DNA of 8,638 nt. Origin: Nitrospinae bacterium RIFCSPLOWO2_12_FULL_45_22 (GTDB taxonomy: Bacteria; 2-12-FULL-45-22). The notes under the pieces are model-generated. The model saw only the letters and a program-made list of their open reading frames with translations, made no database searches and was not told the origin of the DNA. Below, in pieces: positions 1 to 3,742 of the stretch (positions are counted from its first letter, which is position 1; each line of letters starts with the position of its first letter). The translations under genes were made by a program, and so were the position numbers. The stretch covers positions 1 to 8,638 of the forward strand of contig MHDQ01000196.1 of the NCBI GenBank assembly GCA_001803565.1, given 5' to 3'.

Positions 1-777
1 GGTTGCGTATTTCAAGTAAAAATTAGTATTGTCTAAATAGCTTAGGTGCGGATTATTGTCATTATCTAACTCTAAGGAAGTGTACCACCCTACATCCCCC
101 TGGGTATCCACTGTATCCTTTTGCCACGCTGACCCATCAAAGTATATATATTTGAGGTTTTGACCAGTAGGCTCATAGTAGCTTATGTGGGGACGGTCAT
201 TAGTATCTAACTCCAGAGAGGGGAACCAAGCAGACTCACCACTCTTGTCAGTCTCGATGTTCCATTTGCTGCCATCGAATTTGGCATATTTAAGGACATC
301 ATTTGTATCATCATAATAGGCGATAGCCGGGCGGTTGCTGGAATCTAAATCAATAGAGGTAAAATCACCTATACTAGCACTGCTGTCCACGGTTTCTTTG
401 ATCCAGCTTGTACCATTATAATAAGCATGTTTCAGATATGCACTCTTGTGCTCCTGGTAGCTTATATGTGGCCTATCGTTACTATCCAAGGTAAGGGAAG
501 CCCCCCCACTGGCCCCGCCACTATCTACACTTTCTATGGTCCATGAGTTACCGTCAAAAGAGGCATATTTAAGAGTACTATTGGTAGAATCCAAGTAGGC
601 AATGTGGGGTCGGTCATGACTGTCTAACTCCAGGGAGGAGTACCACCCGACAGACCCTGCACTATCTACAACTTGTCTAACCCATTCACCTTTATCAAGA
701 TAGGCGTATCTCAAATCATAATTAGTATATTCTAGATAACTTATGTGGGGCCGGTTCTTACTGTCTACTTCTATTGA
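1..777 (-). repeat. In-frame tandem repeat array, about 138-141 bp per unit, coding for 46-47 aa units
   Basis: Units begin at 777, 636, 498, 357, 219 and 78 (minus strand), giving five complete units and one cut by the window edge. Unit lengths run 141, 138, 141, 138, 141 bp. Each unit carries an Asp-Arg-Pro-His-Ile-(Ser/Ala)-Tyr core, a Leu-Lys-Tyr-Ala core and a Ser-Trp near the end. The DNA has diverged more than the protein motif, so these are old coding repeats rather than a recent microsatellite. The segment coded by about 840-778 (AAWQ...NIGWYT) matches the closing half of a unit. Confidence 0.9.
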
Positions 778-990
778 TGTATACCAACCGATGTTGGGAG
801 GATCGGTGGGATTGTCAGCGGTCATCACTTGCCACGCTGCCATAAGCGGTGATGGCGTGAAGAAAAGTGAGATTAATAAGATCAGCCCTGATATGGAACA
901 TCGAAGATCGGGCGCTCTAATATCTAGGTAATAGCAAAAGTTAGTTTGCAGTGCCTTTGATATGTATCTTAATAATCTTTTTATATTCAA
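1..990 (-). CDS. Secreted tandem-repeat (beta-propeller-like) protein, 3' end missing
   Basis: An open frame runs on the minus strand from a TTG at 988-990 to the window edge with no stop (330 codons visible), so the C-terminus is missing. The TTG is chosen because GGAGAA lies at 997-1002, 6 nt upstream, and the only in-frame ATG (841-843) falls after the hydrophobic segment. Residues 1-30 are basic; residues 31-47 (CSISGLILLISLFFTPS) are hydrophobic; cleavage is likely near Ala51/52. This would be an unusually long signal peptide. After residue 52 come 46-47-residue repeats built on a pattern like SLELDS-DRPHISY-D-TN--LKYA-FDG-SW--ETVDS. Such repeats occur in many uncharacterised secreted proteins and suggest four-stranded propeller blades. 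It starts 21 nt after the FecR-gene stop and is the third gene of the same transcription unit. The role is unknown; a surface-displayed or secreted substrate of the neighbouring barrel protein is an inference. Confidence 0.85.
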   Translation of the reverse strand, partial: MNIKRLLRYISKALQTNFCYYLDIRAPDLRCSISGLILLISLFFTPSPLMAAWQVMTADNPTDPPNIGWYTSIEVDSKNRPHISYLEYTNYDLRYAYLDKGEWVRQVVDSAGSVGWYSSLELDSHDRPHIAYLDSTNSTLKYASFDGNSWTIESVDSGGASGGASLTLDSNDRPHISYQEHKSAYLKHAYYNGTSWIKETVDSSASIGDFTSIDLDSSNRPAIAYYDDTNDVLKYAKFDGSKWNIETDKSGESAWFPSLELDTNDRPHISYYEPTGQNLKYIYFDGSAWQKDTVDTQGDVGWYTSLELDNDNNPHLSYLDNTNFYLKYAT

Positions 991-1002
991 GACGACTTCT
1001 CC
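988..1002 (-). promoter_or_regulatory. Ribosome binding site deciding a TTG start
   Basis: On the minus strand GGAGAA (1002-997) sits 6 nt before TTG (990-988), in the short gap after the FecR-gene stop. It is the only good start signal for the repeat protein that keeps the hydrophobic export segment. Confidence 0.55.
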
Positions 1003-1011
1003 TATTTCTGC

Positions 1012-1920
1012 TTATGGTGGTGGTGGAGGTGGCGGTGGAGGTAGTACTGGTTTTAATGACCCTGCTTTTGGGTTATCCGTAGGTTGTTGTGGTATGGGGG
1101 GCAAGTCTGCTGGTTTATCCCTCGCCCCCAAGCTAGAAGCAATGTCCCGGATTGCAGTTGCGGCCTGCCCTGCTTCTCCTTCCGCTGGTGAAGTAACAAG
1201 TTCTTCCCCTTTGGCAGTAACTTCTTCGCTTAGGGCTTTTTCTGCAGGTGGTGTTTCGGCCAACTGTTTGCTTATCTGGGTATCCTGAAGCAAAGGGGCC
1301 TTCTGATCAGGTGGTGCGAGGATAGGAGGGGCAGGATGTTTACCAAGACTAATTTCTGTCATATAGTTCTCTCTGAGGATTTGTTCTCCTCCTACCTCGG
1401 CCAGGATATTCTTTACCAGGACTTCACCGGATAACACTATGACTATGGTCAGTTGAGGATTTACTACCCAGGTCAGAAAGTCGGTGCCCCGCGTAGATAT
1501 GACGGCCGTTGGGGTTTCTATCTGGAAGCGGGAGCCTTCACCGGTAAAGGTCTTACCTACTATGGCCCTTACTTTGCCTGAAACCAGGCTGAAGACCGAG
1601 CTGCGGCGATCCTTCTCTGGTAGATAGACATGCTCATTGATCAGTAACTGGGTATTCTCCCCCAGGCTCAGGAGGCTATCATCGTCCATTAGGAACTCTA
1701 CCTTGCTGGCCTCTTTGGTCTGGACCGTATCGTTAAGGATTAAAGGATCGGTGAGTTTCATGGCCAGCCATTCTGTAGCCTTTTGATGGCGGTCTAAGGC
1801 CTGGCCCTTTAGGGCACTGACCGACCCAATAGGCTCCTGGGCCCAGAGCACATCAGGTAATAGGCAACACCAAAAGAAGATAATAAAAATCAATAAACGC
1901 CTTATCATTTCTCTGATCAC
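1012..1920 (-). CDS. FecR-domain secreted protein with proline-rich tail
   Basis: The 302-residue product has an N-terminal signal sequence (hydrophobic about 9-25, likely cleavage after LWA at about residue 27). A FecR-type domain follows at about 65-170, with the family's typical patch TPTAVISTRGTDF at 137-149. The C-terminal third is low-complexity, rich in Ala, Glu and Pro, and ends in nine consecutive prolines (294-302). It therefore acts in the periplasm or is tethered to the envelope. FecR-domain proteins of this soluble type are not classic iron sensors: no sigma factor or TonB receptor gene is adjacent and there is no internal transmembrane anchor. They are often found beside TPR or barrel genes, as here. 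Start choice is unsettled: a GTG at 1920 and an ATG at 1908 (four codons later) are in frame. AGGGTG upstream of the ATG could serve as its ribosome binding site, making the ATG slightly preferable. Confidence 0.85.
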   Translation of the reverse strand: MIREMIRRLLIFIIFFWCCLLPDVLWAQEPIGSVSALKGQALDRHQKATEWLAMKLTDPLILNDTVQTKEASKVEFLMDDDSLLSLGENTQLLINEHVYLPEKDRRSSVFSLVSGKVRAIVGKTFTGEGSRFQIETPTAVISTRGTDFLTWVVNPQLTIVIVLSGEVLVKNILAEVGGEQILRENYMTEISLGKHPAPPILAPPDQKAPLLQDTQISKQLAETPPAEKALSEEVTAKGEELVTSPAEGEAGQAATAIRDIASSLGARDKPADLPPIPQQPTDNPKAGSLKPVLPPPPPPPPP

Positions 1921-1941
1921 CCTATAAAAAATGTAACCAAG

Positions 1942-2013
1942 GGGGATAAAGGGATAGAGGAGATTAATGGTGATAAAAAATATTTATGTTATCTCCTTTT
2001 CCCCATAATCCCC
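1942..2013. repeat. Imperfect long stem-loop between the TPR-barrel and FecR genes
   Basis: Positions 1942-1964 pair with 1991-2013: read as reverse complements, 18 of 23 positions agree, with perfect blocks at both ends (GGGGAT and GGAGAT). The loop is about 26 nt and A/T-rich. There is no T-tract typical of an intrinsic terminator, so it may be an attenuating or stabilising intercistronic structure or a degenerate dispersed repeat. Confidence 0.55.
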
Positions 2014-2104
2014 AAATCTCCTTTCTTACACAAGTATCCACTGAGGACAGCCTTGAGTTACTTAGATAGAGCAAAAGTAAGTTTTAATCTCACTGCTCAC
2101 TTTA

Positions 2105-3682
2105 TTAATATGCCAGGTTTAGGGTGGCAAAGACTAGTTCCCGGTCGTAGTCATATAGGGCCAAGTTAGAGTCATGGGTAATGTTCATATATTTTACCGA
2201 GAGGGTATACCCCTTACCCAAATCAATCCCTACGCTAACCGCTGCACTATATTCCTTATCCCGCCTGGTTTTACGCAATGCTGTATCTGTGTGGAGAAAG
2301 TCCTGTCGGTAATAGTCGAAATCGAGGGTTAGAAAGAGCCTTTTCCAGATAAAACCCAGGGGGGTATAGAAACTAATAGAAGCTTTATTCCCTTGATAGT
2401 CCCAGTTCTCTCCCCGGGCCAGGTCATTATCATAGGCATAGCCCAGCTTTAGGTAGCGGGTATTCTCAGCAAAAAAGATATATTGCTGCAACCCGATCAG
2501 GTGGTTATAGGCATCACGATTAAACGGGGTCGAAATAGTTGTCGAATGGAAGTCCTTGTGCTGTAAGCGGTATTGGAGCTGAGTGACAAGATTAGGCCGG
2601 TACATGAAGGAGAAGATATTATTGAGGCTATTGCTGTCCAGATAGCGGTTGTTCTCCAGGAGATCATTGCTATAGTCGTAGCTCAGAAACCAGTAATAAG
2701 TTTTTTCTTTATATTTGCCCTGGTAGGAAGAATAGAGGCTCAGGACATGATCTTGCAGATCAAAGTCCTCTAGAGAACTATGGATGCTTTGATACAGGGC
2801 ATAGCGGGTATTTAGAGACCAATTGGGCCGCTCCCAGAGCCGATACTCACCACCCAGGGAAAATACCCCTTTAGTATTGCCTTGCTGGGTAACTTCCTGT
2901 ACTACCGAGGTGTCACCGGGCTGCAGGATGACATTGTCATCGTACTGCGGGCTCATGCTGGCAAAGATACGCCAGCGTTTAGCCAATTTTTTACGCTGCT
3001 GGATATCCTCCAGATACTTTTTGGCGCCTAAGCCTAGCTCTGAGCCGGGGTCTATTTTTATACAGCCCTGGAATTCTTTCTCGGCCTCTTCCAGACGGTT
3101 CAATTGCGAATAAGCCAGGCCGGAGAAGAGATAAGCGGTTTGGGCAAGGGCCTTATCCAACTCCCGGGACTTAGTAAAGAGGGGTGGTACCGGCTCATAC
3201 TCTTTTGCTAAATAATGGATATAGCCCTGATAATAATATACCAGGGCACGTTCTGGTTGATATTGCTCTGCGGTGCGGAATTCCTGTAGGGCCTGAGCAT
3301 ACTTACCCATCTTGAAAGAGGTGATGCCCAGATCAAAATGGATAGTGGTTCGTTTAGGATCCAACTGAAGGGAGCGTTGTAAAGAGGCCAGGGCTTCGGG
3401 ATACTGTCCCAGCTCTATCTGAGTAAGGCCGAGATAATAATGGGCCTCGGCATTTTGGGGCTGGGCTTTTATTGCTTCCTGGAGGGCTGTGAGGGCCTGG
3501 TTAAACTCTTTCTTATTATAAGCCAGCACCCCTTTGGAGAGATAAACCTCACCCTCACCATACTCGGCTGACCATGCCGTACTAATTACGGCTAGAATCA
3601 CGCTAATACTAACTACTAGCCCGAGACAACCCTTTGACCAGCCCACCTCTCTCTCCCGGATAAGTTTGGTTTGAGCGATCAC
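2105..3682 (-). CDS. TPR protein with C-terminal outer-membrane beta-barrel (Slam-like architecture)
   Basis: The 525-residue product has an N-terminal export signal (hydrophobic about 19-37, likely cleavage after SA at 39). Tandem TPR helices fill about 45-215 (for example AEAHYYLGLTQIELGQYPEA and the next unit ending in QLDPK). From about 236 the sequence turns into alternating aromatic/polar strands; it opens with ASMSPQYDDNV, a pattern frequent at barrel entries, and ends in an aromatic residue (...LNLAY), as outer-membrane barrels do. A TPR periplasmic domain plus barrel is the layout of Slam/DUF560-type proteins that move lipoproteins or soluble cargo across the outer membrane, but family membership is inferred from layout only. 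The start is uncertain: GTG 3682 is the longest frame, whereas GTG 3646 has the stronger upstream purine run (GGGAGAGAGAG) and still keeps the signal peptide. It is the first gene of the envelope unit, with its own promoter at 3714-3742. Confidence 0.85.
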   Translation of the reverse strand: MIAQTKLIREREVGWSKGCLGLVVSISVILAVISTAWSAEYGEGEVYLSKGVLAYNKKEFNQALTALQEAIKAQPQNAEAHYYLGLTQIELGQYPEALASLQRSLQLDPKRTTIHFDLGITSFKMGKYAQALQEFRTAEQYQPERALVYYYQGYIHYLAKEYEPVPPLFTKSRELDKALAQTAYLFSGLAYSQLNRLEEAEKEFQGCIKIDPGSELGLGAKKYLEDIQQRKKLAKRWRIFASMSPQYDDNVILQPGDTSVVQEVTQQGNTKGVFSLGGEYRLWERPNWSLNTRYALYQSIHSSLEDFDLQDHVLSLYSSYQGKYKEKTYYWFLSYDYSNDLLENNRYLDSNSLNNIFSFMYRPNLVTQLQYRLQHKDFHSTTISTPFNRDAYNHLIGLQQYIFFAENTRYLKLGYAYDNDLARGENWDYQGNKASISFYTPLGFIWKRLFLTLDFDYYRQDFLHTDTALRKTRRDKEYSAAVSVGIDLGKGYTLSVKYMNITHDSNLALYDYDRELVFATLNLAY

Positions 3683-3713
3683 CCTAGAAGGGTGTTGAGG
3701 ACGATATTTTGTG

Positions 3714-3742
3714 TTTATACCTCATTCTGTTAGGCATGTCAA
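3714..3742 (-). promoter_or_regulatory. Near-consensus sigma70 promoter for the envelope operon
   Basis: On the minus strand TTGACA (3742-3737) is followed by a 17-nt spacer and TATAAA (3719-3714). The predicted transcript starts near 3707, giving a leader of about 25 nt to GTG 3682 or about 61 nt to GTG 3646. It lies in the 83-nt gap after the thiolase stop, which shows no terminator hairpin, so readthrough from the thiolase unit may add to this promoter. Confidence 0.7.

Follow-up and report, generated by a model that had tools for sequence, protein, structure and literature searches.

A conserved TPR-barrel and FecR gene pair beside an exported propeller gene: probable split relative of the NsrA signalling receptor

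Three neighbouring genes on the minus strand of the window (the whole stretch of DNA analysed, i.e. the first 8638 bases of the 15,172-base contig G000:C196 from a draft genome in 321 contigs) encode a TPR-β-barrel outer-membrane protein, a FecR-domain protein and a BNR-type β-propeller. All three carry an N-terminal export signal. This arrangement, already recognized in the first-pass annotation, is confirmed by ORFs, Pfam matches and sequence, the third gene being cut by the contig end. The locus raises the question of whether these proteins form a machine that displays a protein on the cell surface, as initially proposed, or a surface sensor that reports inward. The sensor is considered the more likely of the two.

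The TPR-barrel protein (525 aa; 3682-2105, minus strand) is defined by Pfam TPRs, an AlphaFold (AF2) model and 33 strong homologues. Its true start is probably the GTG at 3646, behind GGGAGAGAGAG, since a good ribosome-binding sequence then lies ahead of the gene and a clean, normal signal peptide results. The model, built from five sequences (pLDDT 81.9, pTM 0.53), shows about 11 helices in the TPR part and a barrel of 14 strands, as many strands as in Slam. The periplasmic TPR domain (residues 44-234; 2981..3553, minus strand), which is also detected by Pfam, matches TPR proteins such as MamA in fold searches (Z about 19). The outer-membrane barrel (residues 237-524; 2111..2974, minus strand) resembles the 14-stranded porins CymA and OmpG of the PDB (Z 21-23), a likeness of fold only, and no Slam chain was among the PDB matches listed. 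A 680-aa paralogue of the TPR-barrel protein is encoded elsewhere in the genome (G000:C93:4898-6940, minus strand), followed by a thioredoxin-like protein in place of FecR.

The second gene codes for an exported periplasmic FecR-domain protein of 302 aa (1920-1012, minus strand; PF04773 with 57.5 bits, E 1.9e-15), which was correctly described at first reading. Its FecR domain (Pfam PF04773) is located at 1420..1731 (minus strand), its signal peptide is evident from the sequence, and nine prolines form a C-terminal polyproline tail (1015..1041, minus strand). No membrane segment was seen beyond the signal peptide. Much longer FecR proteins of 800 and 803 aa are encoded ahead of the barrel in Nitrospinaceae (L131:1556-3958 and L133:5772-8183), and one of 2033 aa after the barrel in L086 (2736-8837, minus strand); in those scanned, Pfam sees the FecR domain only.

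The third gene (990-1, minus strand) is incomplete because the window starts at a contig end, and its 3' part is missing. The available 330 aa nevertheless agree with the repeat protein with export signal and propeller-like character that had been noted: PF15892 matches with E 2e-9, and modelling from the protein's own sequence yields a β-propeller (pTM 0.72). The nearest folds are the Photorhabdus PLL/PHL bacterial lectins, which signifies likeness of fold and not sugar binding. Within the 330-aa part, only BNR_4 passes the cut-off, and neither a lipobox nor a TbpB-type domain is present.

The single strong promoter that the first-pass annotation had placed before these genes is not supported. 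Promoter-like sites are not enriched in the window (18 vs 13.4 +/- 4.3 in shuffles), and just one, scoring 9/12, lies upstream of the TPR-barrel gene. The TPR-barrel gene follows a same-strand thiolase gene after a gap of only 83 bp. FecR and propeller genes are separated by 21 bp, TPR-barrel and FecR genes by 184 bp; the latter gap contains a hairpin-forming inverted repeat (1941..2013, minus strand) of moderate stability (z -2.0; 6 of 200 shuffles fold equally well). An Rfam search of the window returned no match.

The first two genes of the locus form a conserved pair. An initial protein search revealed TPR-barrel relatives in four distant genomes, each with an adjoining FecR gene. Searching 386 genomes with a TPR-barrel profile yielded 33 strong homologous loci (above 200 bits after profile refinement), and in 26 of these FecR adjoins the barrel, 24 times on the same strand and twice on the opposite one (L087, L093). 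The binomial probability of this outcome is about 1e-56 at an assumed background of 0.4%; the barrel-FecR pairing is far beyond chance. The loci are partly non-independent (several genomes fall into a common family, and three are represented by two loci each), and no plausible correction for this would remove the pairing signal. FecR was likewise found beside the barrel in all four named loci of a separate collection (Nitrospirales, Schekmanbacteria and two from Nitrospinaceae), retrieved with a profile from a 4-row alignment. Distant TPR-less barrels (39-75 bits) were considered as the same system and rejected, none of nine having FecR beside them. The TPR-less barrels L102, L103, L104, L106, L109 and L110 lack FecR and have neighbours that look like polysaccharide export genes.

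The suggested unit of TPR-barrel, FecR and an exported multidomain protein does recur, with a third slot that is variable and sometimes empty (L039, L081, L131, L133). By our count, a large exported protein or lipoprotein directly follows FecR in about 19 of the 28 FecR loci whose next gene was readable; in several FecR-barrel loci, a cyclase or CRP stands where the third protein would be. The domains encountered range from Ig, carboxypeptidase-regulatory and cadherin-like modules via NHL or PQQ propellers and β-helices to subtilase and clostripain-type domains. About ten of the lipoproteins have in common an undescribed N-terminal domain of roughly 90 aa that Pfam does not recognize (E 1e-4 to 2e-15 in leave-one-out searches, and 3.5e-12 for L091, which was not in the seed) and that is absent from the window propeller. 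It sits on varied C-terminal modules in L040, L035, L080, L083, L090, L091, L094 and L101. Third-slot proteins may be ligand-binding subunits, cargo or unrelated hitch-hikers.

A second group of neighbours bears on function. CHASE2 proteins are encoded in 13 of the 33 strong-barrel loci, the other 20 having no CHASE2 gene inside the stretch examined; all five scanned carry a nucleotide cyclase domain, and the named locus L133 also holds a CHASE2 cyclase. Regulators with a cNMP-binding domain (CRP-like, LuxR-type or hybrid histidine kinase) reside directly beside barrel or cyclase in L075, L131, L133 and L085. At the genome level, 25 of the 28 genomes with a strong barrel encode CHASE2, vs 174 of the remaining 358 (Fisher p 1.5e-5; the genomes are phylogenetically non-independent). 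As CHASE2 is widespread (199 of 386 genomes), this co-occurrence is modest evidence; in the three barrel genomes that lack CHASE2, FecR is likewise missing beside the barrel. Among 20 high-ranking CHASE2 loci, selected from the head of the match list regardless of barrels, seven have FecR within about 6 kb.

No cyclase gene is present on the 15-kb window contig. The one CHASE2 cyclase found in the genome is encoded on contig C35, its start codon 49 bp from the contig end. The ends of C196 and C35 have no shared sequence or overlap, and joining them was rejected. The cyclase lies at the end of contig C35 and the window contig breaks in the propeller gene; in this genome, cassette and cyclase may be linked in the barrel-FecR-propeller-cyclase order that L077 and L084 display. 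An NsrA-like fusion of 1166 aa with FecR, TPR and a barrel-like C-terminus is encoded at G000:C125:10250-13750 (plus strand). The genome therefore has split and fused forms, and the C125 fusion, rather than the window pair, could be the cyclase's partner.

The characterized counterpart is NsrA-CyaK of Sinorhizobium meliloti, in which signal perception requires both proteins (PMC7529298). The nsrA gene is located directly upstream of cyaK and overlaps it. In domain scans, NsrA, one chain of 1200 aa, has its FecR domain at 66-160 and its TPRs at about 230-590; a C-terminal barrel is placed at about 600-1200 (PMC7529298); CyaK was recognized by domain scan as a CHASE2 cyclase. NsrA-CyaK (PMC7529298, PMC13001267) shares with the window FecR, periplasmic TPRs and an outer-membrane barrel, and the CHASE2 cyclase partner with the window's relatives. 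In contrast to the single polypeptide NsrA, the window spreads these domains over two adjacent genes and adds a gene for an exported propeller, and its contig carries no cyclase. NsrA aligns with the window's TPR and FecR regions (E 6e-8 and 2e-10, respectively), whereas the window barrel has no detectable homology to the NsrA barrel (hhalign probability 0.2%). Because NsrA, the receptor that CyaK needs, unites FecR, TPR and barrel in one chain, the window pair looks like a split NsrA, and the CHASE2 cyclases and CRP-type regulators beside its relatives speak for signalling. The window cassette is therefore probably a conserved trans-envelope signalling cassette and a split relative of NsrA.

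In such a cassette, the 14-stranded barrel, or an exported third protein bound to it, would sense a ligand or an event at the cell surface. The TPR arm, in the periplasm, and soluble FecR could then relay the signal across this compartment to an inner-membrane CHASE2 adenylate cyclase, and the cAMP formed in response would change transcription via a CRP-type regulator. In this path, the direction of signalling, the physical contacts and, for the window organism, the C35 CHASE2 cyclase as partner are inferred.

Although the first-pass annotation knew of no described system with exactly these three parts, FecR, TPR and barrel recur in NsrA-CyaK, there as one chain, and a cAMP cluster of Campylobacterota is similar in make-up (PMC9239204). 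There, a CHASE2 cyclase and a phosphodiesterase accompany a FecR outer-membrane protein and a TPR protein; FecR, TPR and cyclase recur in the window or its relatives. The cluster differs in its phosphodiesterase and in being known from gene neighbourhood alone, and the passage describing it mentions no third exported protein (PMC9239204). The BiofilmReg operon likewise has a FecR protein gene adjoining a CHASE2 receptor gene, but comprises a LysM-FecR protein, a CHASE2 histidine kinase and a response regulator, and an outer-membrane barrel is unmentioned (PMC5192318). In magnetotactic bacteria, the gene of the TPR protein MtxA is followed by one for a CHASE2 cyclase (PMC4439547). FecA-FecR-FecI also combines an outer-membrane barrel with a periplasmic FecR domain; the window FecR differs in carrying a signal peptide only. 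Neither a TonB-dependent receptor nor an ECF sigma factor was matched among the window proteins, and none was apparent in the other ORFs of the contig.

Signalling and display could also be joined. In an extended form, regarded as unlikely, the cassettes would be display-and-sense receptors, in which a DUF560-like TPR-barrel bears a swappable surface protein, while FecR and the CHASE2 cyclase turn its engagement into cAMP; the choice of ectodomain would then determine the stimuli of CHASE2 receptors in numerous lineages. We hold it rather improbable that the third-slot protein is a barrel-displayed outer ligand-binding subunit whose occupancy FecR reports to the CHASE2 cyclase. The slot does hold variable binding-type modules (propeller, Ig, cadherin-like, β-helix), its lipoprotein versions are built on a common N-terminal domain, and the window propeller has a fold similar to that of sugar-binding lectins. 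However, the slot is absent from the four loci named above, and the window propeller is not built on the common domain.

Export without signalling would mean that the TPR-barrel moves the third product to the surface as Slam does, with FecR as escort or adaptor. The locus resembles Slam (type XI) systems in its N-terminal TPRs, 14-stranded barrel and nearby gene for an exported protein (PMC8406197), and the frequent large exported or lipoprotein neighbours, about ten with a common N-terminal domain, fit a cargo role. Two barrel relatives, L086 (59.5 bits) and L093 (41.2 bits), pass the SlipAM/DUF560 cut-off, and the profile of the barrel family matches that of DUF560 with an hhalign probability of 95.6%. 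DUF560 (PF04575), however, has no match at E<=1 in the window protein and none at E<=0.01 in its barrel; membership of the window protein in Slam was rejected on this ground. Of the Slam-like character originally assigned, the architecture and the two relatives remain, whereas the match of the window barrel itself does not. Weak affinities of the family to BBP2_2 and DUF2860 are at least as strong as that to DUF560, and the family can safely be called a remote relative of several families of outer-membrane barrels, including DUF560. Unlike in Slam systems, no TbpB-type cargo domain was seen in the available part of the third protein, and the partners are FecR and, in relatives, CHASE2. Moreover, propeller paralogues occur on contigs C277, C186 and C237 of the window genome, where no barrel homologue was found, and several FecR-barrel loci hold a cyclase or CRP instead of the third protein. 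The idea of the repeat protein as Slam-type cargo is weak, given the window barrel without DUF560, the available part of the third gene without lipobox or TbpB-type domain, and the CHASE2 and CRP neighbours of relatives, which point to signalling; export or display is considered improbable. That FecR and TPR proteins form a mere structural scaffold from outer membrane to peptidoglycan, as the polyproline tail of the window FecR and the FecR domains in LysM proteins (PMC5192318) might suggest, is highly improbable in view of the CHASE2 cyclases and cNMP-binding regulators linked to the pair in relatives.

The proposed trans-envelope signalling cassette has implications beyond the window. What CHASE2 domains sense is stated to be unknown (PMC5192318); a widely conserved FecR/TPR-barrel pair next to CHASE2 cyclases suggests that a large number of these domains, rather than sensing directly, obtain their signals by relay from the outer membrane, as in NsrA-CyaK. 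The pair connects this single characterized case, from one symbiont, with numerous unrelated bacteria, and the question could be tested in relatives that can be cultured.

Apart from the cassette, a conserved domain of about 135 aa, without Pfam match, was observed at G000:C277:1088-1495 and at about 20-25 other places in the window genome. The window propeller sequence stops short of the region where this domain would be. All six copies checked end at the stop codon and the domain has the motif AFAALAEPGSVQAGSPKIIGDIS..SFSYTP; it resembles a C-terminal domain for sorting or anchoring.
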